Shown piece after piece: positions 7,119-57,957 of a DNA stretch of 64,000 nt. The stretch is from Actinomycetospora chibensis. Its GTDB lineage: Bacteria; Actinomycetota; Actinomycetes; Mycobacteriales; Pseudonocardiaceae. The notes under the pieces were generated by a model. It was given only the letters and a program-made list of their open reading frames with translations. It made no database searches and was not told the DNA's origin. The translations under genes and the position numbers were made by a program. Where the stretch lies: NCBI RefSeq assembly GCF_028737215.1, contig NZ_JAQZAM010000017.1, positions 1 through 64,000 of the forward strand, given 5' to 3'. Within the stretch, counting starts at the first letter, position 1. Every line of letters begins with the position of its first letter.

Positions 7119-7216
7119 CTGCCAGGGCCGCGACCCCTTCGAGCACGGCGGGCACGAACGTGCGGCGGACACTCGCCCACGGTACGTCCGGGCCGCCGAG
7201 CCGTTGTTGGTGCAGG

Positions 7217-7579
7217 TCAGGCCCCGCCCGGGTCGAGTCGCGCGCGGACCGTGGCCAGGCGGCCGGCCAGCTCGGTCTCGTCGATGACGTTCCGGGCGAC
7301 CAGCGAGTGCGCCAGGGCGACGAGCTGGTTCTCCGGGTGGGGCAGCGAGGAGTACACCTCGCGGGTGATGCGGTCCTCGTCGTCGCGACGGGTGAGCAGG
7401 GGCAGCGCCGCCCCCTCCTCGTCGAGCGCGTCGCACATCGCGTCGAGGCTGGACTTCCAGGGCGGCACCGCATGGGTGACGCCGTACTCCGCGGCCATCC
7501 GTTCCCAGATCTGGTCGTGCTCGACGATCCGTTCCAGCGTCCGGACCCGGACGGAGGCGATGTCGTGGTCGGTCGTCAT
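7217..7579 (-). CDS. Putative thiocyanate hydrolase / nitrile hydratase accessory protein
   Basis: 120 aa, acidic, soluble. The C-terminal part (LVARNVIDETELAGRL) resembles the helical hairpin found in small nitrile-hydratase-type activators and at the N-terminus of nitrile hydratase beta chains. It starts 16 bases after the gamma-subunit gene, so the two are surely co-transcribed. Thiobacillus thioparus has a small activator (P15E) that helps load cobalt into thiocyanate hydrolase; by size and position this could be its counterpart. That is inference, and the sequence match is weak. Confidence 0.6.
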   Translation of the reverse strand: MTTDHDIASVRVRTLERIVEHDQIWERMAAEYGVTHAVPPWKSSLDAMCDALDEEGAALPLLTRRDDEDRITREVYSSLPHPENQLVALAHSLVARNVIDETELAGRLATVRARLDPGGA

Positions 7580-7595
7580 GTCGTGTCCCCGTGGA

Positions 7596-8324: not shown

Positions 8325-8364
8325 CCCCGTCCCCCTCCTCGTCTCCGCGTCACGTGCTGCCGGG

Positions 8365-18443: not shown

Positions 18444-18731
18444 CTAGCCGGGGCGCCTCTCCACGGATGCGCTGGGCCACATCGGGGAAATCTCGGGCTG
18501 ATCGTCGTCCACCAGCCGATGCGCCAGCGCGATCGCCTCCTCGCGGTCGACCCCGTCGGTACGGTTCGTCGCGGACGCCGTCGCTTCGAGGGTGACCACC
18601 AGGTCCGCCGCCTCGGCCGACGACACGTCGGCATAGCCCTTGCCGAGCTCGTATCGTGTCCGAAGTATCTTCGCGGCCTGCTTCAGCAGGTTGTCCTGAC
18701 TTTCCCTCACCGAGGGCTGGTCGGTCATCAT
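18444..18731 (-). CDS. Small hypothetical protein downstream of rpe
   Basis: 95 aa, mostly alpha-helical and hydrophilic. An N-terminal SVRESQDNLLKQAAKILRTR helix is followed by an Ala/Glu-rich segment and a DREEAIALAHRL helix. No motif recognised. AGAGGAG lies 7 bases before the first of two adjacent ATGs. It starts 65 bases after rpe on the same strand and shares its likely terminator, so it is probably the last gene of that transcript. Confidence 0.6.
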   Translation of the reverse strand: MMTDQPSVRESQDNLLKQAAKILRTRYELGKGYADVSSAEAADLVVTLEATASATNRTDGVDREEAIALAHRLVDDDQPEISPMWPSASVERRPG

Positions 18732-18796
18732 GGAGAACTCCTCTACGTCATTCCGGCGCGCCGGTGTGCTCTCGCCGGAGGCTTTCTTCTCCACTG

Positions 18797-19477
18797 CTAT
18801 GTCAGGGACGTCGCCTGCGCCAGCACTTCGCGGAGCTCTTCGGCCGCAGCCCGTTTCCCCGACGGGTGGTTGAGCAGTGCGGAACCGACGACGAGCAGCT
18901 CCGCGCCGGCCCGGTGCGACGCTGCTGCCGTACTCGCCGAGATTCCCCCGTCCACCTCGATCTGGATCGGCCGCTCGGAACGGTCGGCGAGCTCGCGGGC
19001 CTCGGAGACCTTGTCCTCCATCGCGCCGATGTACTCCTGACCGCCGAATCCGGGATTGACGGTCATGATCAGAATCTGATCGAGCTGGTCGAGGACGTAA
19101 GGGGCGAAGTCGAGCGACGTCGACGGGTTCACGGCCACCCCCGCGCGAGCCCCGAGATCCCGGATGTTCGAGAGTGTGCGATGCAGGTGCTGGCAGGTCT
19201 CGACGTGCACGATGACCGTGCCGCACCCGGCGGAGACGAAGTCCGCCAGTACCAGGTCCGGGTCCTCGACCATGAGGTGAGCTTCGAAGGGCAGGTCGAC
19301 ATAGGGTCGGCACGCGCCGACGACCGCAGCTCCGAACGTCAGGTTCGGGACGAAGCGGCCGTCCATCACGTCCCACTGGATACGGTCGACGCCCGCCGCC
19401 TGGAGGTCGAGGACCTCCGCGGCGAGGCGGGAGTAATCGGCGCCCAGAACTGATGCGACGATGGCTGGTGCGGTCAT
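18797..19477 (-). CDS. rpe: Ribulose-phosphate 3-epimerase
   Basis: 226 aa, normal length. It interconverts ribulose-5-phosphate and xylulose-5-phosphate, an essential step in regenerating the formaldehyde acceptor. Family marks: SVLGADY near the N-terminus, catalytic Asp in QWDVMDGRFVPNLTFG, HLMVEDP, the metal ligand region VNPGFGGQEY, and EVDGGIS with the second catalytic Asp. GGAGGG precedes the ATG. Divergent from rpiB across 396 bases. Confidence 0.95.
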   Translation of the reverse strand: MTAPAIVASVLGADYSRLAAEVLDLQAAGVDRIQWDVMDGRFVPNLTFGAAVVGACRPYVDLPFEAHLMVEDPDLVLADFVSAGCGTVIVHVETCQHLHRTLSNIRDLGARAGVAVNPSTSLDFAPYVLDQLDQILIMTVNPGFGGQEYIGAMEDKVSEARELADRSERPIQIEVDGGISASTAAASHRAGAELLVVGSALLNHPSGKRAAAEELREVLAQATSLT

Positions 19478-19873
19478 CGATGCCCTCCGTCTGCGTTTCG
19501 TCGTGCCCGCCCGGGGCGAACCCTTCAGGCCCTCGTCGATCACCCGTCGCTGGTGGAGCGTCCAGGTCGCCATTGGTCGTCGAATCCTTTCCGCGTGGCT
19601 TGCGGTTCGGCGCGCCCGACGACGAAGAATCGTCGTTCTGGCTGTCGTCGCGAATTCGGTGCACACTTCACGACGTCGCAGGCGGTGGACCTCGGGCCGA
19701 GTGGGTCGGCGCAACCGGTCGACCGACCGCGAGATCAGAGCCGTTGAAGTGATCTTCATTCTAACATTCGGCGGTGCGGCGGCATAGTGTTCCGGTGGGA
19801 TCCGGCGAACGATCTCGTTTGCTGCGACCGAGTAGGTGTTGTTTTCAGCGGGATGACTGTCAGACTTGCGGGC
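19478..19873. other. Divergent intergenic region between rpe and rpiB
   Basis: 396 bases with no convincing gene. The stretch around 19740-19800 is noticeably richer in A/T than its surroundings and contains TTGAAG (19744) and TAACAT (19762), but their spacing is too short for a standard promoter. TAGTGT at 19785 is another possible -10. Both flanking genes must start from here. Confidence 0.5.
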
Positions 19874-20347
19874 ATGCGCGTCTACCTCGCTTCCGACCAC
19901 GCCGGGTTCGAGATGAAGAACCATCTGCTCCGGCGCCTCGATGAACTGGGGCACGAAGTACGTGATCTCGGGGCTGCCGAATTCGACCCGGACGACGCCT
20001 ACCCGCCCTACTGCATCGAGGCCGGTATTCGGGTGATGGCCGACGAGGGCAGTCTCGGTGTGGTCGTCGGTGGCTCCGGGAACGGTGAACAGATGGCCGC
20101 GAACAAGGTTCCCGGAATCCGTGCCGCCCTCGCGTGGAGCACCGAGACCGCGTGCTTGGCGCGGGAGCACAACGACGCTCGGATCGTGGCGATCGGCGCT
20201 CGCATGCACACCCTCGACGAGGCCACGGAGATCATCACCTCCTTCGTCGACACTCCTTTCTCGGAGGACCGGCGGCATCTCGACCGCATCGCGATGCTCG
20301 ACCGGTACGAGGAGAGCGGACAGCCGCCGCCGCTGCACGAGCGCTGA
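19874..20347 (+). CDS. rpiB: Ribose-5-phosphate isomerase B
   Basis: 157 aa. It interconverts ribose-5-phosphate and ribulose-5-phosphate. MRVYLASDHAGFEMK opens the protein. The phosphate loop is GGSGNGEQMAANKVPG, the mycobacterial type that lacks the Cys base of E. coli RpiB and uses Glu instead. HNDARIVAIGARMH follows. The ATG at 19874 matches the family start; an in-frame ATG at 19853 is possible and neither has a strong ribosome site. Supplies ribulose-5-phosphate to the RuMP enzymes encoded nearby. Confidence 0.92.
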   Translation: MRVYLASDHAGFEMKNHLLRRLDELGHEVRDLGAAEFDPDDAYPPYCIEAGIRVMADEGSLGVVVGGSGNGEQMAANKVPGIRAALAWSTETACLAREHNDARIVAIGARMHTLDEATEIITSFVDTPFSEDRRHLDRIAMLDRYEESGQPPPLHER

Positions 20348-20386
20348 TGCCGGTGCGGTGGTCGATCGGGGGAGGCGCATGGCGGG

Positions 20387-21397
20387 TCAGGCGCCGAGGA
20401 GGTCGTGCAGCCGTCCGATCTGGTGATCACCCTCGACGACCAGGACCGTGCCGGTGCTCGAATGCATGGCCACGGAATGCGTCGTGGCACGGTCGGCGCG
20501 GTACTGCAGTCCGGGGACGTCGGCGCAGCCGGTGACCCCGGTGGCGCTGAAGAGGATGTCCTCCCCACCGACGAGGTCCCTGGTGTGCAGGACCGCGTCG
20601 ACGTCGTGCCCGGCGTCGAGCGCCCGTCGACGCGCGCCGGCGTCGCGTGGCCACAATCGCGCCTGGATCGAGCCGCCCAGACAGGCCAGTGCGGCGGCCG
20701 CGAGGACGCCCTCGTGTGCGCCACCGATGCCGACGAGCATGTCGCTGTCGCTGTCGGGGTGTGAGGCGGCGAGTGCACCGGCGATCTCCCCGCCCTGGAG
20801 GGGACGGGCCCGCGCCCCGGTGCCACGGATCTCGCGCACGATCTCCTCGTGCCGGACGCGCCCGAGGACGGTCACGGTGATGTCGGAGATCGGCCGTTGC
20901 GCGGCTGCGGCCACCGCCCGCACGTTCTCGGCCAGCGGACGGTCGAGGTGGACGACATCGCGCGCATCCGGCCCGACGACGAGCACCTCCAGATCGGTGA
21001 TCGGTGGTGCCCGGAACATCCCGCCGTACTCCGTGGCCGCGATCACCGCGAGAGCATCGGGCATGCCCTTGGCGGCCAGGGTGGCACCGTCGAGGGGGGC
21101 GAGGGCGAGGTCGCGGGCCGGGCCGGTGCCGTCACCGACCTGCGCGCCGGCCCGGAAGGGGCCGTCCTCACCCTCGTCCGTGACGACCGTCCCCCGGATG
21201 GGGATCGATCCCATGAGGGAGCGCGCGGCGGCCACGGCCGCGGTGATGCCGCTGCGCTCGTCGCCCAGCCCGATCCACCGGCCCGCCGCGAGCGCCGCGA
21301 TCTCGGTGACCCGCGTGAGCTCGAGGACGAGGTCGGGTTCCGCACGCTCGACGGCACGAGAGGCCGAGGAGCGAGGGGAGTCAGCGGACGGCAGCAT
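20387..21397 (-). CDS. Divergent class II fructose-bisphosphatase (GlpX-like)
   Basis: 336 aa, a GlpX homologue by overall order (ITDLEVLVVG, GGIGAHEGV-type loop, LVGGEDILFSATGVT). The metal-binding region is altered. The canonical GEGEKDxAPM is reduced to VVTDEGEDGP (71-80), and the canonical DPLEGT is APLDGAT (100-106), so the Asp that holds the metal is Ala. The ATG lies inside the 3' end of fba (17-base overlap), giving coupling. It may be a weak, specialised or regulatory enzyme, possibly with preference for sedoheptulose bisphosphate; that is speculation. An intact glpX lies 3.4 kb away. Confidence 0.8.
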   Translation of the reverse strand: MLPSADSPRSSASRAVERAEPDLVLELTRVTEIAALAAGRWIGLGDERSGITAAVAAARSLMGSIPIRGTVVTDEGEDGPFRAGAQVGDGTGPARDLALAPLDGATLAAKGMPDALAVIAATEYGGMFRAPPITDLEVLVVGPDARDVVHLDRPLAENVRAVAAAAQRPISDITVTVLGRVRHEEIVREIRGTGARARPLQGGEIAGALAASHPDSDSDMLVGIGGAHEGVLAAAALACLGGSIQARLWPRDAGARRRALDAGHDVDAVLHTRDLVGGEDILFSATGVTGCADVPGLQYRADRATTHSVAMHSSTGTVLVVEGDHQIGRLHDLLGA

Positions 21398-22358
21398 TCG
21401 CGACCGCCCGCTCGGAGAGGGCATCCTGCGCGGCGCCCCACCGGTCGTCGCTGCCTCGCCAGGCCTCGAGGGCCGGCCCGACCAGCGCCCGACCGAACGA
21501 GTACGTCAGCTCCCAGGGAAGGGGAGCGAGCTCCTTCATCGCGGCCAGGTTGTCGGTGGCCTCCTGCGGGTCCTGTCCCCCGGAGAGGAACGCGATCCCC
21601 GGCACCGCCGGCGGGACGGTCTCGCGCAGGGTCTCCACGGTCGCGCGGGCGACCTCGGACGCTGTGGGCTTCTGCGAGCAACCGTCGCCCGCCACCACCA
21701 TGTTCGGCTTGAGGACGATGCCGTCGAGCTGGACCTCCATGAGGCTCAGCTCGCTGAACACCGACCGTAGGACCGCCCGGGTCACCTGCCGGCACTGCTC
21801 CAGCGAATGGTCGCCGTCCATGACCACCTCGGGCTCCACGATCGGCACGAGACCCGCCTCCTGGCACAGCCCGGCGTAGCGGGCGAGTGCGTGGGCGTTG
21901 GCCCGTTTCGTCCGGTCCGTGGGGAGGCCGTCGCCGATCGAGTACACCGCGCGCCACTTGGTGAAGGTGGCTCCCATGGCCACGTACTCGTCGAGGCGCT
22001 CGCGGAGTCCGTCGAGCCCCTCGGTCACCGTCTCGCCCGGAGCGCCGGCCAGCGGCTTGGCGCCGGTGTCGACCTTGATCCCGGCGAGCACCCCGATCCC
22101 GGCGAGTGCGGCGGGGAACGTGGTCCCGTCCGAGAGCACCTGGCGGAACGTCTCGTCCGCGAGGATGGCACCGCTGACGGATTCGGAGAGCTCCGGAGTT
22201 GTGAGGAGCAGTTCCCGGTAGCGGCGCCGGTTCTCCTCCGTCGGCTCGACGTCGACGCTCTCGAGGCGCTTCGACATCGTCCCGATGCTCTCGTCGGCCG
22301 CCAGAATGCCTCGCTTGTTCGACACCAGTGTCCGAGCAACGTCGGTCAGAGATGACAT
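21381..22358 (-). CDS. fba: Class I fructose-bisphosphate aldolase
   Basis: 325 aa Schiff-base aldolase. Family marks are ILAADESIGTMSKR near the N-terminus, GIKVDTG, FTKWRAVYSI, EPEVVMDGDHS, the Schiff-base Lys in IVLKPNMV, and LSGGQDPQEAT. It joins triose phosphates to fructose bisphosphate and can also form sedoheptulose bisphosphate. AGGGGAA precedes the ATG. It is transcribed away from hxlB and reads into the divergent glpX-like gene. Confidence 0.95.
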   Translation of the reverse strand: MSSLTDVARTLVSNKRGILAADESIGTMSKRLESVDVEPTEENRRRYRELLLTTPELSESVSGAILADETFRQVLSDGTTFPAALAGIGVLAGIKVDTGAKPLAGAPGETVTEGLDGLRERLDEYVAMGATFTKWRAVYSIGDGLPTDRTKRANAHALARYAGLCQEAGLVPIVEPEVVMDGDHSLEQCRQVTRAVLRSVFSELSLMEVQLDGIVLKPNMVVAGDGCSQKPTASEVARATVETLRETVPPAVPGIAFLSGGQDPQEATDNLAAMKELAPLPWELTYSFGRALVGPALEAWRGSDDRWGAAQDALSERAVANAAVR

Positions 22359-22897
22359 GGGTTCCCCTACCTCTCCGTGGAACGCCGCCCCTGTGCGGCG
22401 GCGAGGAATGGTCTCCAGCTCCTGCGCGCCGAGCCGGCGCACGGCCGAGCCGGCAGCGCGGACGTCACCGACGCGTGCGGGATCGACCCGCAGCGGGAGG
22501 AATCGCGGCTGGAGGTGCACAGAGGGGCGACATCCGCGGAAGGCCCTCCGGCGAGGCGCGGTCCCCCGTGGGGGCGGTGGGAACCGGCCGAGCGTCGGGC
22601 CACTCGAGGTGCCCGACGAACGACAGTTGTAGCCGTCGCCGACGACGGAGCGCAAGCATCTCGTCGCCATCGGTCGCCATCACACGGCCGGTCGCCGGCC
22701 TGTCGAGCCGAAGGTCCTCGCTGGTCGGCGTCGGGTCCGTGGGAGGGCGCAGGGGGCTTCCGGCCCGTCTCCACGCTCTCGCGTCCGCGAACGCGCACCG
22801 AGGTGGAGCGGGACGCCTCGTGACGATCCGGACCCGAACGGCATCACCACCGAGAACGCCCTTTCGAGGCCCGCTACTGCACGGAGTAACCCTCTGA

Positions 22898-22943
22898 CTC
22901 CCCCGCGTAGGGGAGCCGACTGCCCCGCAAGCGTGCCTAGCGT
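22898..22943 (+). promoter_or_regulatory. Dyad operator and leaderless-type promoter upstream of hxlB
   Basis: CTCCCC (22898-22903) and GGGGAG (22910-22915) form a perfect 6-bp dyad around cgcgta. It abuts GCCGAC (22915-22920), which with 17-base spacing precedes TAGCGT (22938-22943), a good actinobacterial -10. ATG follows 7 bases later. A dyad touching the -35 is typical of a repressor or MerR-type site. No regulator for it is evident in the window. Confidence 0.4.
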
Positions 22944-22950
22944 CTGGCCC

Positions 22951-23022
22951 ATGACCTCGATGTTCGTTCGTCATCCACGGGCACCGGACGCCTCGAGGGG
23001 GACCCCGCGTCCCCCGCGGTGA
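22951..23022 (+). CDS. Possible leaderless 23-residue upstream ORF
   Basis: ATG at 22951 sits 7 bases behind TAGCGT, as in leaderless mRNAs. The frame gives 23 residues, begins MTSMFVRHPRAP and ends TPRPPR. It lies about 260 bases before hxlB and could be a leader peptide, or the stump of a lost gene. No family match. Confidence 0.25.
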   Translation: MTSMFVRHPRAPDASRGTPRPPR

Positions 23023-23283
23023 GGCCCTGAGGGCCGGTCGACGACCGGTCCGCACGGCGTGCTCGCCGCAGCACAGCCCGGGGCCACGGGCAGGCAGGGG
23101 CGCCTGCCCGGGGCCGGGTCCGGGCACCGAGGCGGGGGTCGCGACGCGACCCGGCTCCTCGCCACCGCGGGCTCGAGGACCCGGTGGCGCGATGTCTTCG
23201 ACGGTGCATCGGGTCCGGGGCGACCCGCTGCAGAACGAGCACGGGCATTTCGGCCCATTCAGTGTGGAAAGGGGTTGTGTCAA

Positions 23284-23877
23284 TTGTCTGCATCGACATC
23301 GGGCGCCCACGGCGAGAGCGCCGCGCATTTCGGCGACGCCGCCGACCTGATCATCGGTGAGCACGCCAAGGTCCTCCAGGGCGTCGACGCCGCGACCTGG
23401 GAGCGGGCAGGAGCGTTGCTGATCGATGCTCCCGCGGTGTTCACCATCGGCACGGGACGCAGCGGGCTGGCGTTGCAGATGGCGGCGATGCGTTTCATGC
23501 ATCTCGGCAAGGCCACCCACGTCGTCGGGGAGACGACCGCTCCGGCGATCGGCGCCGGCGACGTGCTGGTCGCGGCCTCCGGCTCCGGCTCCACCAAGCG
23601 GGTCGTGACGGCTGCGCGGACGGCCTCCGAGCAGGGCGCCGACGTCCTGGCGATCACCACCGACCCCGACTCCGATCTCGCCGGGCTGGCGACCGAGACG
23701 TTGCTGGTCCCTGCCGCCGACAAGCAGGACTTCGAGGGCACGACGTCCGCCCAGTACGCCGGGAGCCTGTTCGAGCAGTCCCTCCTGATCCTCACGGACG
23801 CGCTCTTCCACGTCCTCTGGCAGACCAGCGGGAGCCAGGCCCGCGAGCTGTGGCGCCTCCACGCCAATCTCGAGTAG
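23284..23877 (+). CDS. hxlB: 6-phospho-3-hexuloisomerase
   Basis: 197 aa SIS-domain protein, normal length. It converts D-arabino-3-hexulose-6-phosphate to fructose-6-phosphate, the second RuMP step. Sugar-phosphate loop: TIGTGRSGLALQMAAMRFMHLG; then GSGSTKRVVTAA, and the C-terminal catalytic segment DFEGTTSAQYAGSLFEQSLL. No ATG or GTG fits the family start. The TTG at 23284 has AAAGGGG 9 bases upstream and is chosen. Followed by hxlA after 58 bases that contain short gtcgatgcc repeats. Confidence 0.92.
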   Translation: MSASTSGAHGESAAHFGDAADLIIGEHAKVLQGVDAATWERAGALLIDAPAVFTIGTGRSGLALQMAAMRFMHLGKATHVVGETTAPAIGAGDVLVAASGSGSTKRVVTAARTASEQGADVLAITTDPDSDLAGLATETLLVPAADKQDFEGTTSAQYAGSLFEQSLLILTDALFHVLWQTSGSQARELWRLHANLE

Positions 23878-23935
23878 CTCCTGCGTTTGCCGTCGATGCC
23901 GTCGATGCCGTCGAGCCCGTGCAAAGGATGCGGTC

Positions 23936-24679
23936 ATGCAGTTGCAGTTCGCCATGGATGTGTCGACGCTCGACGAGGCGCTCGCCCTGTGCCGCCAGGT
24001 GGCCGAGCACGTCGACATCATCGAGATCGGAAGCCCTCTGATCAAGAACGAGGGCGTGACGGCGATCCGCGCGATCACGGCGTCGTACCCCGACAAGACG
24101 ATCTTCGCCGACATGAGGACCGTGGACGCCGGAGCACTCGAGGCCGACATGGCCTTCGGCGCCGGGGCAGACCTCGTGTCGGTGATGGGCGGAGCCGACG
24201 ACGACACGGTCCGAGGCGCGGTCGCGGCGGCTCGACGCCGCGGCAAGGGCGTGGTCGCCGACATGACCGACGTCCGGGGCTGCGTCCTCCGGGCTCGCGA
24301 GCTCGCCGGCCTGGGCGTGGAGTTCTGTGAGTTCCACGCCGGCGGCGACGAGCAGGCCCTGTGCCGGTACTCCGTCCGAGCCGTGATCGAGGCGGGACGG
24401 CAGTCGGAAGCGCCCTTCTCGGTCGCCGGCGGCGTGGACCTCGACAGCATCCTCGATGTCCGGGCCTCGGGCGCGGTGGTCGCCGTGGTCGGTGCCGCGA
24501 TCCGTCGAGCTCCGGACCCGCGTGCCGCGGCCGGCGCGTTCCGGGTCGCCATCGACACGGCCTCCGTGTTCGGCGACGTCACCCCGGTCCGGCAAGGACG
24601 ACCTCACGGCATTCCCTGCGGGCCCGGGCCCGGGCAGGGACGGGCTCGCCGGCTCGCCGACCGCGCCCGGAACGCCTAG
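23936..24679 (+). CDS. hxlA: 3-hexulose-6-phosphate synthase homologue, variant active site
   Basis: 247 aa, an OMP-decarboxylase-superfamily barrel. The family enzyme joins formaldehyde to ribulose-5-phosphate. LQFAMDVSTLDEA, IEIGSPLIKNEG, and FHAGGDEQA follow the family pattern. The signature DxKxxD is D59-M-R61-T-V-D64, with Arg for the catalytic Lys. The second copy at 29.7 kb keeps Lys. About 30 extra GC-rich residues follow the barrel (after residue 210), so the original stop may be lost. AAAGGA precedes the ATG. Activity is uncertain. Confidence 0.85.
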   Translation: MQLQFAMDVSTLDEALALCRQVAEHVDIIEIGSPLIKNEGVTAIRAITASYPDKTIFADMRTVDAGALEADMAFGAGADLVSVMGGADDDTVRGAVAAARRRGKGVVADMTDVRGCVLRARELAGLGVEFCEFHAGGDEQALCRYSVRAVIEAGRQSEAPFSVAGGVDLDSILDVRASGAVVAVVGAAIRRAPDPRAAAGAFRVAIDTASVFGDVTPVRQGRPHGIPCGPGPGQGRARRLADRARNA

Positions 24680-24757
24680 CCGCCGGGCCCGTCGGTCGAC
24701 GCCATGCACGACGCGGTCGCTCTCTCAAGAGCGAGCCAGGAGATGTGGAGACTCGAT

Positions 24758-25753
24758 ATGCCATCCCAGAGCGACACGTTCCTGCCGGTGTGCCTCGACC
24801 TCGGAGCCCTGGAGTCGGCGGCGGTCGCGGCGACGCACCGCGCGGCGCTGGCCTGCTGTTCCTGGGTCGGCCGGCACGACGCGGACGCCGCCGACGGCGC
24901 CGCGACCGAGGCCATGCGTCGCGCTCTGGCGACCGTCCCCGGGCGCGGAACGGTGGTCATCGGGGAGGGGGAGAAGGACAACGCGCCGATGCTGTTCAAC
25001 GGCGAGGTCGTCGGGGACGAGGGAGGCGGGCCCGACTTCGACATCGCCGTCGACCCCCTGGAGGGCACGTCCTTCTGCGCGAAGGGGCTTCCCGGAGCCC
25101 TGTCCACGATCGCCTTCGGCGACTCGGGTTCCTTCTGGTCCCCCGGACCGGGTTTCTACATGGACAAGATCGTGGTCCCTCCGGCGGCGCGTCACGCCGT
25201 CGATCTCGACGACCCCCCTGAGCGCACCGTGCAGAAGGTCGCGGAGGCCCTCTCGAAGAGGGCCGACGAGCTCCGTGTGGTGATCATGGACAAGCCTCGC
25301 CACCAGGGGGAGGACGGGCTGATCGCGCGGGTGCTGGCGACAGGAGCCGCGGTCCACACGCCGGCGGGGGGCGATGTCGGGGGAGCGCTCGAGGTCCTCC
25401 TGCCGACCTGCGACGTCGATCTCCTGCTCGGCGTCGGCGGCACGCCCGAAGGCGTCATGACCGCCGCCGCGGTCCGGGCCCTCGGCGGCGGCATGCTCGG
25501 TCGCCTCGCGCCCAAGACCGCCGAGGAGGCCGCGGCGATCCGTGGCGCCGGCATGAGCGTCGATCGCGTCTACGAGCGCGACGAGCTCGTCGGCGGTGGC
25601 GCGCTGTTCGCCGCCTCCGGCATCAGCGGCGGACCACTGCTCGGCGCACCGCGCCGCGTCGACGGCACCACGGTCGCCGAGTCGCTCCTGATCACCGACG
25701 GACAGGTGCGCTTCATCCGGCACACCACCTTCGAACCGATCCCGACCTGGTGA
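24758..25753 (+). CDS. glpX: Class II fructose-1,6-bisphosphatase
   Basis: 331 aa with complete metal sites: VVIGEGEKDNAPM (66-78) and DIAVDPLEGTSF (95-106), then GGTPEGVMTAAA. Removes phosphate from fructose bisphosphate and, in RuMP organisms with the bisphosphatase cycle, from sedoheptulose bisphosphate. GGAG lies 7 bases before the ATG at 24758; upstream in-frame ATGs at 24704 and 24743 have poor ribosome sites. It starts 78 bases after hxlA and is followed by pfk after 46 bases. Confidence 0.93.
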   Translation: MPSQSDTFLPVCLDLGALESAAVAATHRAALACCSWVGRHDADAADGAATEAMRRALATVPGRGTVVIGEGEKDNAPMLFNGEVVGDEGGGPDFDIAVDPLEGTSFCAKGLPGALSTIAFGDSGSFWSPGPGFYMDKIVVPPAARHAVDLDDPPERTVQKVAEALSKRADELRVVIMDKPRHQGEDGLIARVLATGAAVHTPAGGDVGGALEVLLPTCDVDLLLGVGGTPEGVMTAAAVRALGGGMLGRLAPKTAEEAAAIRGAGMSVDRVYERDELVGGGALFAASGISGGPLLGAPRRVDGTTVAESLLITDGQVRFIRHTTFEPIPTW

Positions 25754-25799
25754 CCCCGACGTTCCGGCCCGACCACCCACTCCCGGGGGAGGAGAATCC

Positions 25800-27197
25800 G
25801 TGACGGTGCACCTGGAGGATCTCCACATCCGCACGCTCGGCGAATGCCGACACACGTCGCCGTTCTCCGCGTGGCTCGCCGACAAGCAGACCACCCCGCA
25901 TTTCGTCCACGAGGACGACCGGGTGATGCTCGACGACACGACCTCGATCATCACCGCGAACAACGCCGCGGCGCTCCCGTCCTTCGAGTGCGCCGGGCCT
26001 CGGCGGAAAATCTACTTCGACCCGGCCCGGACGACGGTCGGCATCGTCTCCTGCGGTGGGCTCTGTCCCGGTGTCAACAACGTCATCAGGGGCGTCGTCC
26101 AGGAACTCACCGTGCACTACCGGGTACGTCGGATTCTCGGCTTCCGCAACGGGCTCAAAGGACTGACCGCCAAGTACCGCAACGACACGATGGATCTGAC
26201 CCAGAGCAGCTTCCACGACATCACCCGCTCCGGAGGGACGATCCTCGGCAGTTCTCGTGGCGACCAGGACGCCGACGAGATGGTCGACACCCTCATCGCC
26301 CGCAAGATCGACATCCTGTTCGTCATCGGCGGCGACGGGAGCATCCGGGCAGCGATGCGGCTGGTGTCGGCGATCACCCGGCGCGGACTCGACATCGCGG
26401 TGGTCGCGATCCCCAAGACGATCGACAACGACCTGCCCTACACCGACCAGTCGTTCGGCTTCCAGAGCGCGTTCGAACGGGCGACCGACTTCATCGAAGC
26501 GGTCACCACCGAGGCCGCGGCCCACGAGAACGGCGTGGGGATCGTCAAGCTCATGGGTCGGCACTCCGGCTTCATCGCCTGCTACGCGGCGTTGGCGAAC
26601 CACGGCGCCGACATGGTGCTCATCCCCGAGGTCCCGTTCGAGCTCGAGGGGCCCGAGGGCCTGCTGGCCAAGGTCGAGCACCACCTGCTCACCCGTGGCC
26701 ACGTCGTCATCGTCGTCGCCGAAGGTGCCGGGCAGGAGCTGCTCCCGGCGGCCGGGACCCTCGACGGGAACGGTGCGACCGACGCCTCGGGCAACCTGCG
26801 CCTCGGCGACATCGGCCAGTTCCTCAGCGACCGCATCTCGAGCCACCTCACCCGGATCGGCCTGACACCGGCGCTGCGCTACGTCGACCCGAGCTACTCC
26901 ATCCGCAGCGTCACCGCGAACGCCTACGACAGCGTCTACTGCCTCCGGCTGGCCCACGCCGCCGTCCACGCGGCCATGGCCGGCCGGACCGAGACCGTCG
27001 TCGTCCGCTGGCGGCGGCGTTTCGTGCACGTCCCGATGCCGCTCATCACGAGCCATCGCAACCGGGTGGACCCCGACGGGGATCTCTGGATGTCCGTGCT
27101 CGAGGCGACCAACCAGCCCGAGACGCTCGCGCGTCGATGTGCGCCCGGGGCCAGCCCAGCAACGCTCACCGAGACCTCAGGAGTGCACGCCACGTGA
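25800..27197 (+). CDS. pfk: 6-phosphofructokinase (PfkA superfamily)
   Basis: 465 aa, longer than bacterial PfkA (320) and like the group that includes trypanosome and spirochaete PFKs. VGIVSCGGLCPGVNNVIRG binds nucleotide or PPi, GGDGS is at 177-181, PKTIDNDL at 205-212, and GIVKLMGRHSGFIA follows. Gly180 matches ATP-using enzymes while Lys206 is the PPi-type residue; enzymes with this pair are usually ATP-dependent, but the donor is not certain. GTG start with GGAGGAG upstream. The stop overlaps the tkt start. Feeds fructose bisphosphate to aldolase. Confidence 0.92.
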   Translation: MTVHLEDLHIRTLGECRHTSPFSAWLADKQTTPHFVHEDDRVMLDDTTSIITANNAAALPSFECAGPRRKIYFDPARTTVGIVSCGGLCPGVNNVIRGVVQELTVHYRVRRILGFRNGLKGLTAKYRNDTMDLTQSSFHDITRSGGTILGSSRGDQDADEMVDTLIARKIDILFVIGGDGSIRAAMRLVSAITRRGLDIAVVAIPKTIDNDLPYTDQSFGFQSAFERATDFIEAVTTEAAAHENGVGIVKLMGRHSGFIACYAALANHGADMVLIPEVPFELEGPEGLLAKVEHHLLTRGHVVIVVAEGAGQELLPAAGTLDGNGATDASGNLRLGDIGQFLSDRISSHLTRIGLTPALRYVDPSYSIRSVTANAYDSVYCLRLAHAAVHAAMAGRTETVVVRWRRRFVHVPMPLITSHRNRVDPDGDLWMSVLEATNQPETLARRCAPGASPATLTETSGVHAT

Positions 27198-29323
27198 ACA
27201 GCATCGAAGCCACGTCCGTCCGACCGGGGCACGACATCCTCGGCGAGGTCGCCTCCCTGCTCTCCGTGTCGGTTCCCGACGACTGGTCGGACCTCGACCG
27301 ACGAGCCGTCGACACGGCCCGGGTCCTCGCCGCGGACGCCGTCCAGCGCTGCGGCAGCGGTCACCCGGGGACCGCGATGTCGCTGGCACCCCTGGCCTAC
27401 GCCCTGTTCCAGCGCGTCATGCGCCACGACCCGAACGACCCGGGCTGGGCAGGTCGCGACCGGTTCGTCCTCTCCTGCGGCCACTCGAGTCTCACCCTGT
27501 ACCTGCAGTTGTTCCTGGCGGGGTACGGGATGGAGCTGGCGGATCTCGAACAGCTCCGCACCTGGGGTTCGCAGACGCCGGGTCACCCCGAGTACGGCCA
27601 CACGCCGGGGGTCGAGATCACGACCGGTCCGCTCGGCCAGGGCCTGGGCGCGGCGGTGGGGATGGCCATGTCCGCCCGCCGCGAGCGGGGTCTCTTCGAT
27701 CCCGACGCCGCGCCCGGCACCAGCCCCTTCGACCACGTCGTCTACGTCATCGCCTCCGACGGCGACATCGAGGAGGGCGTCACCGCCGAGGCGTCCTCCA
27801 TCGCCGGCCGCCAGCAGCTCGGGAACCTCATCGTGATCTACGACGACAACCACATCTCGATCGAGGACGACACGGCGGTCGCCCTGTCCGAGGACGTGGC
27901 GCAGCGCTACGAGGCCTACGGGTGGCACGTCCAGACCGTGTGCGGGGGCGAGAACGTCGCCGGTATCTGCGACGCCCTGGAGCGCGCGGTCGCCGAGACC
28001 GACCGGCCGTCCTTCATCGCGCTGCGGACGGTGATCGGCTATCCGGCGCCGGAGAAGATGAACACCGGTGCCGCCCACGGCGCGGCTCTCGGTGCCGACG
28101 AGGTCGCACGGGTCAAGGAGATCCTGGGGTTCGACCCGGACGCCAGCTTCGCCGTCGACGACGAGGTGCTCGCGCACACCCGCGCGATCGCCGGGCGGGC
28201 CCGGGAGACCCGGCGCGCCTGGGACGAGTCGTTCGATGCGTGGGCGCGGAAGAACCCGGAACGCCACGCGCTCTACGACCGGATGTCCCGTCGGGAGCTC
28301 CCCGCCGGCTGGACCGACCATCTCCCGGACTGGACCCCCGGGGACGATGCCGTCGCCACCCGGAAGGCCCTCGCGAAGGTCCTCGAGTCGATCGGGGACG
28401 TGCTGCCCGAGCTGTGGGGAGGATCGGCCGACCTCGCCGAGAGCAACAACACGACGATCAAGGGCGCCGACTCGTTCGGCCCGAGCACGATCGAGACGGA
28501 GCTGTGGGGCCAGGCGTCGCCGTACGGTCGCACCCTGCACTTCGGCGTCCGTGAGCACGCCATGGGTGCCATCCTCAACGGCATCGCACTGCACGGCGGC
28601 ACGCGTGCCTACGGCGGGACCTTCATGGTCTTCAGCGACTACATGCGTCCGGCCGTGCGCCTGGCCGCCCTCATGAAGCTGCCCACCGTCTACGTCTGGA
28701 CCCACGACTCGATCGGCCTCGGCGAGGACGGGCCGACCCACCAGCCGGTCGAGCACCTCGCGGCCCTACGCGCGATCCCCGGACTCGCCGTGGTCCGCCC
28801 GGCCGACGCCCGCGAGACCGCCGCAGCCTTCCGCGGCGTCCTCGCGAGCCCGACCGGGCCGGCCGGGCTCGCCCTCACCCGCCAGAACGTCCCGATCCTC
28901 GAGGGCGTCACGACGGACGGCGTCCTGCGCGGTGGGTACACGATCGCGGAGGCCGGTGATCGCACACCGGAGCTCCTGCTGATCGCCACCGGGTCCGAGG
29001 TCTCGCTGGCCCTCTCCGCGCGAGAGGTGCTCCAGGGAGAAGGCGTGCCGACCCGGGTCGTCTCCATGCCCTGCGTCGAGTGGTTCGACGCGCAGGAGGA
29101 GTCCTACCGGCACCGCGTCCTGCCCCCCGGGACGACCGCCCGCGTGGCGGTAGAGGCCGCGGTCGGCATGCCGTGGCACCGCTTCGTCGGTGACCGGGGC
29201 GAGATCGTCTCCCTCGAGCACTTCGGGGCCAGTGCCGATTACCAGACCCTGTACCAGCAATTCGGCCTCACCGTGGAAGCCGTGGTCGAGGCCGCGCGCC
29301 GCTCGTTGTCGCGCGCGGGGTGA
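27194..29323 (+). CDS. tkt: Transketolase
   Basis: 709 aa thiamine-diphosphate enzyme moving two-carbon units between sugar phosphates. Family marks are the His in [31 protein letters not shown], the ThDP/Mg motif SDGDIEEG with [12 protein letters not shown], then [14 protein letters not shown] (catalytic Glu), and [21 protein letters not shown] overlaps the pfk stop by four bases, so translation is coupled. With rpe, rpiB, fba and glpX it rebuilds ribulose-5-phosphate; no transaldolase is present in the window. Confidence 0.95.
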
Positions 29324-29376
29324 CGGCCGCTCGAGCAACCATTTCATCAGCCCCCAAGGAATGGCAGGAGAAGGCG

Positions 29377-29472
29377 ATGACCGTGCGTGGTATCGGCACG
29401 TCCGCGGCGTCCACGAATTCATCCGGCACGGCCGGAAATTTGCCGCGCATTCGCTCGCGAGACTGGTGGTGA
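29377..29472 (+). CDS. Possible 31-residue ORF between tkt and hxlA2
   Basis: A strong ribosome site (GGAGAAGG) lies just before ATG 29377. The frame gives 31 residues starting MTVRGIGTSAAS and ending in WW. It is polar, with no family match. It may be a small protein, a leader peptide or chance. The surrounding 367-base gap holds no other candidate. Confidence 0.35.
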   Translation: MTVRGIGTSAASTNSSGTAGNLPRIRSRDWW

Positions 29473-29690
29473 ACGGCTGCGTCGACTAAGGTCGGTGATG
29501 TCGGAGCGTGCGCTGCTGTCGCAGTTGCGCCGGATATCGAGAGCTCCGCGCCCCGCCGGCAATCGGTCGGCGGAGAGCAGTCCGTTCTCGGTCGAGAATT
29601 CCGCCACCCCACCTGTCGATCGCGCAGGAATGGGCTGACCGCTGGATTCCTCGCACGAGGAACACGTCGAAGACAGATCAGGAGATGCCA

Positions 29691-30359
29691 GTGAAGCTGC
29701 AGGTAGCATTGGACGTTGCGACGCTCGGCGACGCGCTGACCCTGGCTCGCCAGGTCGCCGACTACGTCGACATCCTCGAGCTGGGAACGCCGTTGATCAA
29801 GTCCGAGGGCGTCAGTGCCATCGGCGCGATCAAGTCGGCGCACCCGGACAAGCTCGTGTTCGCGGACCTGAAGACCGCCGACGCGGGCGAGCTCGAGGCC
29901 GACCTCGCGTTCGCCGAGGGCGCCGACGTGGTCACGGTCATGGGCACCGCCGACGACGACACCATCAGTGGTGCGGTGGCGGCCGGGAAGAGGGCCGGCA
30001 GGAAGGTCGTCGCCGACATGATCACTGTCGTCGAGGGCCGCGTGCAGCGGATCCGCGAGGTCTCGGAGCTGGGCGTCGACTTCGTCGAGATCCACGCCGG
30101 ACTCGACGAGCAGGCGCGTCCCGACTACTCGATCGAGTCGCTGCTGGTCGACGGCCGTGAGGCCGGCGTGCCGTTCTCCATCGCCGGCGGCGTCAGCGTC
30201 CACACCATCGCCTCGGTCAAGGAAGCCGGTGCGGAGGTCGCCGTCGTCGGCGGATCGATCTACTCCGCCGACGACCCCGCGGCCGCCGCGAAGGCGCTCC
30301 GGGAGGCGGCAGGCCTCCCGCCGACGACGTCGGATGTGTCCACCGCCGCCGCCGGGTGA
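29691..30359 (+). CDS. hxlA: 3-hexulose-6-phosphate synthase
   Basis: 222 aa, usual length (about 210). Condenses formaldehyde with ribulose-5-phosphate. LQVALDVATLGDA opens the barrel; D59-L-K61-T-A-D64 is the intact DxKxxD catalytic motif; VVTVMGTADDDTI, EIHAGLDEQAR, and IAGGVSVHTIASV follow. The GTG at 29691 has AGGAG 6 bases upstream; the ATG at 29685 lies too close to that site. It resembles the first copy closely over the barrel but has the functional residues, so it is the likely working enzyme. A strong hairpin follows. Confidence 0.93.
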   Translation: MKLQVALDVATLGDALTLARQVADYVDILELGTPLIKSEGVSAIGAIKSAHPDKLVFADLKTADAGELEADLAFAEGADVVTVMGTADDDTISGAVAAGKRAGRKVVADMITVVEGRVQRIREVSELGVDFVEIHAGLDEQARPDYSIESLLVDGREAGVPFSIAGGVSVHTIASVKEAGAEVAVVGGSIYSADDPAAAAKALREAAGLPPTTSDVSTAAAG

Positions 30360-30373
30360 TCGAGCAGTACTCT

Positions 30374-30414
30374 CCCGGCGCCCTGCCGGTCGTCCTGACC
30401 GGCAGGGCGCCGGG
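30374..30414 (+). terminator. Perfect 18-bp hairpin after the second hxlA
   Basis: Arms 30374-30391 and 30397-30414 are fully complementary around a 5-base loop, 14 bases past the hxlA stop. This is one of the strongest hairpins in the window and probably ends the RuMP transcript. The response regulator beyond it would then need its own promoter, or read-through. Confidence 0.75.
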
Positions 30415-30507
30415 TTCCAGCTCCGCGAAGACGGTGTCGTCGAGCGAGAACGGGAGTCCCGAGCCCTCGACGGAGAAGGCGACGGAACGCACGGAGGTCG
30501 GGGACCG

Positions 30508-31158
30508 GTGTCGGGAACTGTGCGGGTGGTCCTCGTCGAGAATCACCAGATGGTCCGTGTGGGCCTGAAGGAGATGCTGGCGGAGTACCCGACGATTCGA
30601 GTGGTCGGGGAGGCCGAGGACGCCCCCGAGGCCCTGCGGATCGCAGAGAGCCTCGCTCCGGACGTGGTGCTCAGCGAGGTGCGTCTGGGGAGCACGAGCG
30701 GCCTGGAGCTCTGCCATGATCTCCTCACCTGGTGCGCCGACGCGCGCGTCATCATGCTCACCGTCCACGACGACGAGCAGTACCTGTCACAGGCGATGCA
30801 CGCAGGGGCGCGGGGCTACCTCCTCAAGCACATCTCCGGCGAGGAGCTCGTCGCGGCGATCCACCGGGTCCATGCGGGCGAGCTCGTCGTCACGACCACG
30901 GCCGGGCACGAGGCGTCGACGGTGACCCGCATCGAATCGGGGGAGTACTGGCCCGGCGGACGTTTCGGGCTGACCCTGCGTGAGAGCGAAGTGCTCTCGC
31001 TGATCGTGATCGGGATGAACAACCACGCGATCGCGGGACACCTGATCGTCGGCGAGGAGACCGTGAGGACCCACGTACGGGCGATCTACCGCAAGCTCGA
31101 GGTCAACGACCGGACCTCCGCGCTCGCGAAGGCCCTGCGCGAGGGGCTGTTCCAGTAG
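30508..31158 (+). CDS. NarL-type response regulator with Glu at the phospho-acceptor site
   Basis: 216 aa. An N-terminal receiver domain (about 5-120) and a C-terminal LuxR helix-turn-helix (LTLRESEVLSLIVIGMNN, then EETVRTHVRAIYRKL). The receiver keeps Thr (IMLTVHDD) and Lys (YLLKH), but the acidic pair is E11-N12 in place of two Asp, and the phospho-acceptor in VVLSEVRL is Glu57. GTG at 30508 has GGAGG 10 bases upstream. No histidine kinase is nearby. It is likely to act without phosphorylation and may control the RuMP genes. Confidence 0.85.
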   Translation: MSGTVRVVLVENHQMVRVGLKEMLAEYPTIRVVGEAEDAPEALRIAESLAPDVVLSEVRLGSTSGLELCHDLLTWCADARVIMLTVHDDEQYLSQAMHAGARGYLLKHISGEELVAAIHRVHAGELVVTTTAGHEASTVTRIESGEYWPGGRFGLTLRESEVLSLIVIGMNNHAIAGHLIVGEETVRTHVRAIYRKLEVNDRTSALAKALREGLFQ

Positions 31159-36235: not shown

Positions 36236-37324
36236 ATGGGCGACCCGACGGCTTCTGGCGGCACCGCCGCGCGCGGTCGTGACGTCCTCGACATGGCCCT
36301 CGTGATCCCGCTACAGGGGCCCGCCGGGATCTTCGGGCCGTCGTGCGAGAGCTGCGCCGCACTGGCCGCGCAGGAGATCAACGCCGAGGGCGGCGTCCTC
36401 GGCCGTGAGCTGAACCTGGTCCCCGTCGACGGCGGACGCAGCCCCGCGGAGGTCGCCACCGAGGTCGACGCGCTGGTGAGCGCCGGCGCCGTCCAGGCCG
36501 TCACCGGGTGGCACATCTCGGCCGTCCGCGAGGCGGTCGCCCCCCGCATCGGCGGCCGCGTCCCGTACGCCTACACGGCGCTCTACGAGGGCGGCGAGAG
36601 CCGACCCGGCGTGTTCCTCACCGGCGAGACGCCGGACCTCCAGCTCGGCCCGACCCTCGACTGGTTCTCCGGCACCGCGGGCGTCCGGCGCTGGACGATC
36701 GTCGGGGACGACTACGTCTGGCCCCGCCGGACGGCCACCACGGCGGCGCGCTACCTGCGGCGGATCGGCGGGACGGTCTGCGACGAGGTGTTCGTGCCGC
36801 TCGGGACGACCGACTTCTCGAACGTCGTGCACCGGGTCGAGGCCAGCGGGTGCGAGGCCGTGCTGATGCTGCTCATCGGCGACGACGCCGTCGCGTTCAA
36901 CCGCGCCTTCAGCGCGTCGGGCCTCGACCGCGACATCCTGCGGTTCAGCTCCCTCATCGAGGAGAACGTCCTGCTCGCCTCCGGGGCGGACTGCACGCGC
37001 GGTCTGATGACCTCCGCGGGCTACTTCGAGGACCTCGCGACGAGCTCCGGGCTCGAGTTCGCCGCGACCTACTTCCGCGAGTTCGGGGACGAGGCGCCGG
37101 TGCTGAACAGCCTCGGCGAGTCCTGCTACGAGGGCGTCCGGCTGCTCACCGAGCTGACGCGGCGCGCCGGCTCGACGTCCGTGCCGACGATGATGTCGGT
37201 GTCCGAGGGCCTCGCGTACGAGAGCCCGCGCGGCACCGTCGAGGTCCACGACCGTCACCTGCGGCAGCGGGTCTTCCTGGCGCTCGCGGACGGCCTGACC
37301 TGGGACGTCGTCCAGCAGCTGTGA
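36236..37324 (+). CDS. AmiC-like amide-binding protein (cytoplasmic)
   Basis: 362 aa, periplasmic-binding-protein fold of the branched-chain amino acid/amide group (LVIPLQGPAGIFGPSCESCAAL; NAEGGVLGREL; YTALYEGGES; YVWPRRT). There is no signal peptide, so it acts in the cytoplasm, as AmiC does when it senses short amides and holds back the antiterminator AmiR. No amiR is present here. TAGCGT ends 6 bases before the ATG, a leaderless pattern. The genes that follow encode an amide channel and formamidase, which supports a sensor role. Confidence 0.78.
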   Translation: MGDPTASGGTAARGRDVLDMALVIPLQGPAGIFGPSCESCAALAAQEINAEGGVLGRELNLVPVDGGRSPAEVATEVDALVSAGAVQAVTGWHISAVREAVAPRIGGRVPYAYTALYEGGESRPGVFLTGETPDLQLGPTLDWFSGTAGVRRWTIVGDDYVWPRRTATTAARYLRRIGGTVCDEVFVPLGTTDFSNVVHRVEASGCEAVLMLLIGDDAVAFNRAFSASGLDRDILRFSSLIEENVLLASGADCTRGLMTSAGYFEDLATSSGLEFAATYFREFGDEAPVLNSLGESCYEGVRLLTELTRRAGSTSVPTMMSVSEGLAYESPRGTVEVHDRHLRQRVFLALADGLTWDVVQQL

Positions 37325-37361
37325 CCGTCCGAACCCGGCTCGCGACGGCGTGCGACGGCCG

Positions 37362-37407
37362 TTGACAGTCTCGTCGCCACGCGGCTAGTTTCCTGGGAAA
37401 TCATTTC
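37362..37407 (+). promoter_or_regulatory. Promoter of the fmdB-amiS-fmdA operon with palindrome
   Basis: TTGACA (37362-37367), an 18-base spacer and TAGTTT (37386-37391) give the closest match to a housekeeping promoter in the window. A perfect 11-base palindrome, GAAATCATTTC (37397-37407), lies at the expected start site, a good place for a repressor. The fmdB ATG is 58 bases further on. Confidence 0.65.
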
Positions 37408-37464
37408 TCGCGCGTGACATCTGCCACCTCCCGGCGGCCGGTCGCGACGAAGGGAGCCCCACGG

Positions 37465-37755
37465 ATGCCCCTGTACGCGTACCGGTGCGGTGAGGACGGG
37501 CCCGCCGAGGTCACGGCGCCGATGGGCGCCGCGCCGGCGACGATCTCCTGCCCGACCTGCGGCGGCGAGGCCCGGCGGATGATCACCGTGCCACGGCTCG
37601 GCCTGGCCGACCGCACGCGGGTCGCGGCCATCGACCGCGCCGAGGCCTCGCGCACCGAGCCCACCGTGGTCTCCGCGCCGCCGCCGGCTCGGGCGTCGCG
37701 CCCGCGGCCCGCCCCCCGTCTCGATCCGCGCACCGCGGCGCTGCCGCGCCCCTGA
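37465..37755 (+). CDS. fmdB: FmdB-family zinc-ribbon protein
   Basis: 96 aa. MPLYAYRCGEDG opens with the FmdB ribbon: a first Cys and, 21 residues on, C-P-T-C, with one of the usual four Cys replaced by acidic or Gly residues (YRCGEDG lacks C-x2-C). A Pro/Arg-rich tail follows. FmdB is a putative regulator or assembly factor next to formamidase in Methylophilus. AGGGAG precedes the ATG. Confidence 0.8.
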   Translation: MPLYAYRCGEDGPAEVTAPMGAAPATISCPTCGGEARRMITVPRLGLADRTRVAAIDRAEASRTEPTVVSAPPPARASRPRPAPRLDPRTAALPRP

Positions 37756-37861
37756 TCCCGTCCGCTCCCCGCCACCGTCCGGCCTCGGGCCGGAACGGCG
37801 CTGTCGTCCTGCCCTCGTCCGAAAGGGAATCCCATGCTGCTCACCCGAGTGAGGCCGCCCC

Positions 37862-38503
37862 GTGGCTAGCGTCGGCCTGCTCTTCGTCGGCGCCGTGCTC
37901 TTCATCAACGGCGTCATGCTGCTGGGGTGGATCGACGCGAAGTCGGCCGCGCCGATGAACTTCTTCGTCGGCGGACTGCAGATCATCACGCCGCTCTACC
38001 TGATCTTCACCGCGAACGGTGACGCCGACGTCATCCTCGCGGCATCGGGCCTCTTCCTCTTCTCGTTCACCTATCTCTACGTGGCGGTGAACCTGACCTG
38101 GGATCTCGACGGCACCGGGCTCGGCTATTTCTGCCTGTTCGTCGCGATCACCGCCGTCGTGTTCTCGGCGCTGAACTTCTTCCGCTTCGCCGACCCGGCG
38201 TTCGGCGTCATCTGGCTGTACTGGGCGTTCCTCTGGTCCCTGTTCTTCGTGCTCCTGGGTCGTAAGCGCGACGGGATCGGGCGCTACACCGGCGCCGTGT
38301 GCGCCATCCAGGGCTGGGTGACCGCGTGGATCCCGGCGTTCCTGCTCCTCACCGGCGTGTACACGCAGATCGGCGTCCCGCTCGCGATCGGCCTCGCGAT
38401 CTTCGGCGTCGTCGTCTTCCTCGCCCTGATCCCGTGGGCGCGCCGGCAGCCCGCACCCGCGGCGCCCGCCGCCCGCAGCGGCGACCACGCCGCCGTCGCC
38501 TGA
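37862..38503 (+). CDS. amiS: AmiS/UreI-family amide or urea channel
   Basis: 213 aa with six hydrophobic helices. Family marks: LLFVGAVLFINGVMLLGWID at the start, PMNFFVGGLQIITPLYLIF, LFLFSFTYLYVAVN, and WLYWAFLWSLFF, matching the UreI/AmiS channels. It admits short amides or urea, here probably formamide or acetamide for the following enzyme. GTG start with GTGAGG upstream, 106 bases after fmdB. Confidence 0.9.
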   Translation: MASVGLLFVGAVLFINGVMLLGWIDAKSAAPMNFFVGGLQIITPLYLIFTANGDADVILAASGLFLFSFTYLYVAVNLTWDLDGTGLGYFCLFVAITAVVFSALNFFRFADPAFGVIWLYWAFLWSLFFVLLGRKRDGIGRYTGAVCAIQGWVTAWIPAFLLLTGVYTQIGVPLAIGLAIFGVVVFLALIPWARRQPAPAAPAARSGDHAAVA

Positions 38504-38560
38504 CCGTCCTGCGCCGCCCACACCCAGCTCGCCCCCAGCCCGCCCAGCAAGGAGAGTCCG

Positions 38561-57953: not shown

Positions 57954-57957
<4 letters not shown>

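Follow-up and report, generated by a model that had tools for sequence, protein, structure and literature searches.

The closest described counterparts of the locus considered here are the rmpA/rmpB operon of Mycobacterium gastri and the ribulose monophosphate (RuMP) genes of Bacillus methanolicus, in which glpX, fba, tkt, pfk and rpe are carried on pBM19 and hps and phi on the chromosome. B. methanolicus has a methylotrophy-linked GlpX besides its chromosomal one (PMC3905653) and has transaldolase activity too (PMC7092467). We find the same enzyme set in a stretch of 64,000 nucleotides from Actinomycetospora chibensis (hereafter the window), which belongs to contig C8 of a 6.18 Mb draft assembly of 55 contigs with an estimated completeness of 97%. 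Like B. methanolicus, Actinomycetospora has a GlpX in its cluster besides a housekeeping one and, as argued below, a transaldolase. Unlike in B. methanolicus, the cluster lies on a single contig, its fba encodes a class I aldolase (FBA), it includes rpiB, a second 3-hexulose-6-phosphate synthase (HPS), a conserved small protein and an apparently dead GlpX paralogue (GlpX1), and alcohol oxidation would fall to pyrroloquinoline quinone (PQQ)- or N,N-dimethyl-4-nitrosoaniline (NDMA)-type enzymes encoded on other contigs. Its HPS and 6-phospho-3-hexuloisomerase (PHI) are homologous to those of M. gastri and of the phi-hps pairs of Arthrobacter and Rhodococcus. The pathway itself is of a known kind, in a little-studied lineage; the new element, supported by comparative evidence, is GlpX1, which apparently belongs to a single-origin clade of dead GlpX proteins that are encoded beside fba in RuMP islands of four Pseudonocardiaceae genera and evolve under purifying selection. 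No report of a dead GlpX was among the papers listed by our literature search.

The ten catalytic residues of Mycobacterium tuberculosis GlpX, a class II fructose-1,6-bisphosphatase (FBPase; 6ayu/6ayv), are given in PMC5892879, where the Thr84Ala variant is described as inactive and Arg159 and Arg161, with Tyr114, as holding the 6-phosphate. GlpX1 of the window (20387-21397, minus strand) has the fold of this enzyme and is 46% identical to it; unlike the enzyme, it retains only 5/10 of the catalytic residues and bears Ala at position 84 (numbering is that of M. tuberculosis GlpX, whose chain used for comparison bears Ser at 84). Our residue table holds nine GlpX1 rows, one of them cut by a contig end, and 17 rows of the other cluster paralogue, GlpX2; the residues of housekeeping GlpX were read separately. 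Duplicate fetches (L023/L080, L024/L080, L031/L095 and L030/L093) were counted once, L025_glpX1_3 and L101_glpX2_26 were dropped as not being GlpX frames, and L101_glpX1_27 is a GlpX2 by its residues. A tenth GlpX1, again beside fba and with the same residue losses, is found in genome G050. The metal ligands Asp27 and Asp79, the nucleophile Thr84, and Tyr114 are lost in all ten copies, position 84 being always Ala, and the nine tabulated rows retain three to five of the ten catalytic residues. The residues that persist include Arg159 (10/10), Arg161 (8/10) and an Asp or Glu at 183 (10/10).

GlpX2 (24704-25753, plus strand) keeps ten of ten catalytic residues in 16 of its 17 rows and nine of the nine aligned in the remaining one, and the GlpX2 of G050 retains 10/10. 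Compared with the M. tuberculosis chain, GlpX1 has an identity of 0.42 over these ten positions and 0.48 over all columns; the values for GlpX2 are 0.69 and 0.40. This division is also seen in the tree, where GlpX1 forms one clade (support 99/99) that groups with housekeeping GlpX, and GlpX2 a separate clade (100/100). Both window proteins pass Pfam PF03320 but miss the cut-off of the NCBIfam equivalog TIGR00330 (233.9 and 245.6 bits versus 259.3). With all ten catalytic residues present, GlpX2 is a candidate FBPase/sedoheptulose bisphosphatase (SBPase). The preliminary description of this DNA counted two GlpX copies, and two GlpX-family genes are indeed present; as a count of enzymes it needs revision, for GlpX1 is without nucleophile and metal ligands.

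Decay to a functionless pseudogene would be in keeping with the loss of key catalytic residues and with the faster evolution of GlpX1 relative to its neighbours. However, the GlpX1 reading frame is open in nine copies, and in the tenth to the contig end, across four genera and G050; nine copies share the same residue at 68 of 288 aligned columns; and pN/pS, at 0.43-0.67, has a bootstrap interval below 1 in 7/7 pairs. We therefore regard a pseudogene as unlikely. An active enzyme with another chemistry or substrate is a poorer candidate still to our minds, and quite improbable: the retention of Arg159, Arg161 and the acidic residue at 183 means that a phosphosugar could still bind, but the nucleophile at 84 and two metal ligands are gone, and the 14 columns that are invariant in GlpX1 yet unlike M. 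tuberculosis GlpX contain no obvious new catalytic residue by eye. The predicted fold of GlpX1 (pLDDT 84, pTM 0.85) matches solved GlpX structures, the top match being 6ayv, the T84A variant of the M. tuberculosis enzyme.

Most likely, GlpX1 leaves bisphosphates uncleaved and instead regulates another protein, either a GlpX or FBA. A binding, non-cleaving role is favoured because Arg159 and Arg161 are mostly kept, though Tyr114 is lost. A dead paralogue is likewise retained beside an active enzyme in the S-adenosylmethionine decarboxylase (AdoMetDC) prozyme of Trypanosoma brucei (PMC5201418); unlike that protein, GlpX1 is bacterial, belongs to sugar-phosphate metabolism and has only a putative partner. 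Linkage to formaldehyde fixation is seen across 100 genomes, where full-length extra GlpX genes occur in 6/7 genomes with a close HPS and in 0/93 others (Fisher p 6e-9) and GlpX1 in 4/7 genomes with a close HPS (Fisher p 9e-6), neither p value being corrected for relatedness. Close HPS here means 68-100% identity and includes one match that a contig end cuts to half length; genomes with one of the four weak HPS-like matches (28-37%) belong to the 93, and second, partial GlpX matches in G029 and G090 are excluded from the extra-GlpX count.

We can only tentatively suggest, and hold it to be doubtful, that GlpX1 founds a bacterial pseudo-bisphosphatase family specific to RuMP islands, whose members would use the retained 6-phosphate arginines to bind sugar phosphates, leave these uncleaved and, being co-produced with the class I aldolase, would serve on methanol as a sensor subunit setting the split of flux between fructose bisphosphate and sedoheptulose bisphosphate, that is, between energy and acceptor regeneration. 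In Actinomycetospora, the Lys-to-Arg Hps1 described below would then represent a second, more recent instance of this strategy. A natural regulator of this branch would be useful because the regeneration of ribulose 5-phosphate has been discussed as a bottleneck of the pathway in organisms engineered to use methanol (PMC6008399). Several observations weigh against a regulatory GlpX1. It evolves faster than FBA (pN/pS of FBA 0.19-0.43, by the Nei-Gojobori method, which ignores base-composition bias, and with pairs that share sequences). Genomes G001 and G002 carry the cluster without GlpX1, and GlpX2 and the housekeeping copy are the only GlpX in the whole of each genome. Lastly, the fetched flanks of seven Saccharopolyspora loci show no GlpX1; fba is seen in just one of the seven. 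As a separate observation, a gene of cluster c26 is called in L095, L100 and L102 and adjoins glpX1 where viewed, and in L178 a similar gene beside glpX1 is over the cut-off for a HAD-IIA family hydrolase; this may be a functional phosphatase that acts alongside the dead GlpX1.

Genes were identified by open reading frame analysis together with curated families (Pfam, and NCBIfam with cut-offs). The enzyme genes span 18797-30359. A small protein gene (18444-18794) and rpe, for ribulose-phosphate 3-epimerase (18797-19477; TIGR01163), lie on the minus strand, followed by rpiB, for ribose-5-phosphate isomerase, on the plus strand (19874-20347; TIGR02133) and by glpX1 and the class I fructose-bisphosphate aldolase gene fba (21381-22358; NF033379), both on the minus strand. 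Divergent from these, and all on the plus strand, are phi (23284-23877, start codon uncertain; TIGR03127), hps1 (23936-24679; TIGR03128), glpX2, pfk for an ATP-dependent 6-phosphofructokinase (25800-27197, start at 25800 or 25926; NF005301), tkt for transketolase (27194-29323, start inferred from comparison with relatives; TIGR00232), hps2 (29685-30359; TIGR03128) and a response regulator gene (30520-31158). Each NCBIfam match named here is above cut-off. In the window, the end of fba contains the called start of glpX1, and tkt apparently starts at the stop of pfk; because these starts overlap or abut the upstream gene ends, they suggest translational coupling of fba-glpX1 and pfk-tkt. In A. 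acidicola, the called fba and glpX1 are separated by 159 bases.

The preliminary description had proposed that 18444-31158 holds a RuMP cluster for formaldehyde fixation that matches the set known from B. methanolicus. Curated models bear out the named enzymes within about 12 kb, and the resemblance is supported, with hps and phi over cut-off and adjoined by pfk, fba, tkt, rpe and glpX. The outer limits hold less well: the enzyme genes reach only from rpe to hps2, rpe does not begin at 18444, and the two ends are the separate small protein and the response regulator. The sister species A. callitridis (strain DSM 101857, found in the scan of genomes with an HPS alignment) has an identical gene order, with protein identities of 81.5-95.5%. 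The grouping is not due to chance, because this order is conserved and because extra GlpX genes track close HPS across the 100 genomes.

An HPS-based search confirmed 136 loci, of which the best 80 were used, with fetched flanks of up to 10 kb that are often cut by contig ends. Among these 80, most cluster genes are also found in Actinomycetospora, Saccharopolyspora, Prauserella, Amycolatopsis, Pseudonocardia and Streptomyces mutabilis. Loci of Arthrobacter, Rhodococcus and the like, unlike the window, show only phi-hps among the enzymes searched, with a luxR homologue in five, and Actinomycetospora soli likewise shows only phi-hps. Proteins were clustered for 29 loci (28 of the 80 and one of G002, several being pieces of one genome) plus the window. 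Across the 29, an xoxF-like gene is called in 12, a catalase-peroxidase in 12, an MSMEG_3727-type gene in 11 and a pqqD-type gene, so labelled by resemblance, in nine. None of these four is called in the Actinomycetospora cluster loci. Counted by genome, the fetched flanks hold an xoxF-like gene in 12/16 and pqqD in 9/16 genomes outside Actinomycetospora. Islands that unite an XoxF-like enzyme, PQQ synthesis and RuMP genes point to candidate actinobacterial methanol users; the papers listed by our literature search include no report of RuMP islands in Actinomycetospora or Pseudonocardiaceae, older work on M. gastri and Amycolatopsis methanolica not being covered. We further note that L131, from a record titled Vibrio cholerae strain 35D, has a phi-hps locus as query-like as the Arthrobacter ones and is probably a mislabelled or contaminated assembly.

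The source of formaldehyde, left unknown by the preliminary description, has candidates at the genome level, for a search of the other contigs for methanol oxidation genes returns two candidate methanol dehydrogenases. Contig C19 encodes an NDMA-dependent methanol dehydrogenase (670.6 bits versus a cut-off of 625) near a mycofactocin radical-SAM maturase that is also over cut-off. Contig C53 encodes a PQQ-dependent dehydrogenase of the methanol/ethanol family (TIGR03075, 634 bits versus 480). An extra Asp two residues past the catalytic Asp (D-x-D) is the motif of lanthanide enzymes, and the C53 dehydrogenase carries it in HDLWDYDS. The gene of this XoxF-like dehydrogenase is 69% identical to an island-borne xoxF-like gene. 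The same contig holds pqqB, pqqC, pqqD and pqqE, a gene of the MSMEG_3727 type and a glutathione-independent formaldehyde dehydrogenase, all over cut-offs, as well as a PqqA-like peptide seen by eye.

We consider it likely that the window carries a RuMP-cycle island of the kind found in several Pseudonocardiaceae, with an alcohol oxidised by enzymes encoded elsewhere in the genome. Methanol or a similar alcohol would be converted to formaldehyde by the XoxF-like PQQ enzyme or the NDMA-type enzyme, and HPS2 and PHI would then fix formaldehyde on ribulose 5-phosphate to yield fructose 6-phosphate. From the gene set we infer, for fluxes and enzyme activities, that fructose 6-phosphate would be cleaved via PFK and class I FBA, and that the acceptor would be regenerated by TKT, RPE and RpiB, helped by transaldolase and/or by FBA and GlpX2 through sedoheptulose bisphosphate, with GlpX1 as the non-hydrolysing regulatory partner. 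On the other side of the balance, no xoxF or pqq gene is called in the Actinomycetospora cluster loci. The best solved matches of the C53 dehydrogenase are quinoprotein ethanol dehydrogenases, with a XoxF seventh, and methanol is only its presumed substrate, which could be another alcohol. Moreover, alcohol oxidation is not tied to the cluster within the genus, because an xoxF-like gene occurs in 18/18 genus genomes searched and a close HPS in only five of the same 18.

Scavenging of formaldehyde by HPS and PHI for detoxification only, with no net growth on C1 compounds, would fit the loci of A. soli, Arthrobacter and Rhodococcus, with phi-hps alone among the enzymes searched, and the formaldehyde dehydrogenase in the pqq locus. 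In the window, however, a regeneration set adjoins hps and phi in an order conserved in the sister species, and detoxification alone would not seem to need it, so we think this explanation improbable.

The proposed RuMP cycle with a transaldolase option departs from the preliminary description, which held that the cluster operates without transaldolase. A search of the whole genome with PF00923 indeed yields no transaldolase match, while the same search is positive in all 99 other genomes of the 100, and for a genome that is about 97% complete this could be taken to mean that the organism is truly transaldolase-free and rearranges carbon only through sedoheptulose bisphosphate. Aligning the tal locus of G017, a genome of the same genus, argues otherwise: contig C3 stops at query base 7293 and C11 starts at 8193, with tal at 7206-8330. 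Read in frame, these two contig ends encode residues 1-29 (97% identity) and 330-374 (91%) of the tal product, and they lie between tkt and pgi-zwf-opcA-pgl, where the sister species carries tal. Of these flanking genes, tkt, zwf and pgl are over NCBIfam cut-offs, opcA is just under (247.7 versus 256.25 bits), and the matches of pgi all stay below cut-offs. A second pair of these tal fragments, differing slightly from the first, lies at ends of C32 and C38, and each of the C3 and C11 ends shares exactly 55 identical bases with its equivalent in this second pair. Such shared ends are expected where a short-read assembler has collapsed a repeat. Within the first 1554 bases of C32, only bases 1-72, which match tal of A. 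callitridis, and otherwise short scraps find a counterpart in that genome. C32:1-85 and the end of C38 (L049, L050) appear to be the ends of a probable second tal gene.

These alignments indicate that tal is present but lost to an assembly gap, probably as two copies collapsed in the assembly, and PF00923 finds no tal because two contigs break inside the gene. The central portion of about 300 codons is absent from the assembly, which speaks against this account, and for this portion and for the intactness of tal we infer a complete gene from its two ends. A transaldolase-free organism is, on this evidence, very improbable, and the appearance of a transaldolase-free methylotroph arises only because the draft assembly breaks inside tal, in the pentose-phosphate operon. 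Because tal is present, an obligatory passage of carbon through sedoheptulose bisphosphate no longer follows, and that route is still possible via FBA and GlpX2. Finally, HPS and PHI are reversible, and archaea without an oxidative pentose pathway run them backwards to make pentose phosphates, but such a reverse RuMP role is scarcely credible in a genome with zwf, pgl, a second tkt, opcA and a pgi-like gene, whose cluster brings separate copies of pfk, fba, tkt and glpX and is located, in many relatives, near xoxF-like and pqq genes.

The count of two HPS genes was likewise correct at the level of the family, as both are over the TIGR03128 cut-off (Hps1 at 211.8 bits versus 200), and open to qualification at the level of the active site. 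The Lys of the D-x-K-x-x-D motif is a functional residue of HPS, and Hps1 of the window has Arg in its place; in A. callitridis Hps1 the second Asp of the motif is lost too. The motif Lys is kept in 87/89 HPS rows; the two exceptions are duplicate fetches of one A. callitridis gene. Among solved structures, Hps1 is best matched by 3ajx, the HPS of M. gastri. Hps1 does not look like a decaying gene, because dN/dS between the two species is 0.14; the value for hps2 was not used, as it includes a few codons beyond the A. callitridis stop. Hps2 is a canonical HPS. Reading A. callitridis Hps2 as a pseudogene with two TAG codons was rejected, the match ending at residue 213, upstream of those stops. 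With GlpX1 lacking catalytic residues and Hps1 carrying the Lys-to-Arg change, the two GlpX and the two HPS may each comprise one working enzyme.

The LuxR-type response regulator, identified by a curated family match and alignment, has Glu at the usual phospho-Asp site in both the window and A. callitridis, and no kinase gene is called next to it in the window. In G002 and Actinomycetospora sp. NBRC 106378, the homologous regulator has the Asp, and a histidine kinase is encoded next to it. The window genome has a homologue (69%) of the G002 kinase on C19, at a distance of about 9 kb from the NDMA-type methanol dehydrogenase gene. The Glu makes a constitutively active form possible.

The small protein of about 90 amino acids at 18444-18794 has no Pfam or NCBIfam match and carries the C-terminal motif EAIALAHRLVDDDxPExSxMWP. 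Its predicted structure is all-helical (pLDDT 74), with no solved-structure match at E 0.001 or better. A homologue is called in 14 of the 29 other clustered loci (for example L108:10644-10922), beside hps or rpe where viewed.

Elsewhere in the window, the plus strand at 36293-39814 encodes formamidase FmdA (695 bits versus 500), a urea-type binding protein below cut-off and a membrane protein without family assignment that is possibly an amide channel. At 57954-61608, also on the plus strand, the joint presence of formimidoylglutamate deiminase, imidazolonepropionase and an allantoate amidohydrolase-family gene suggests a histidine utilisation operon.

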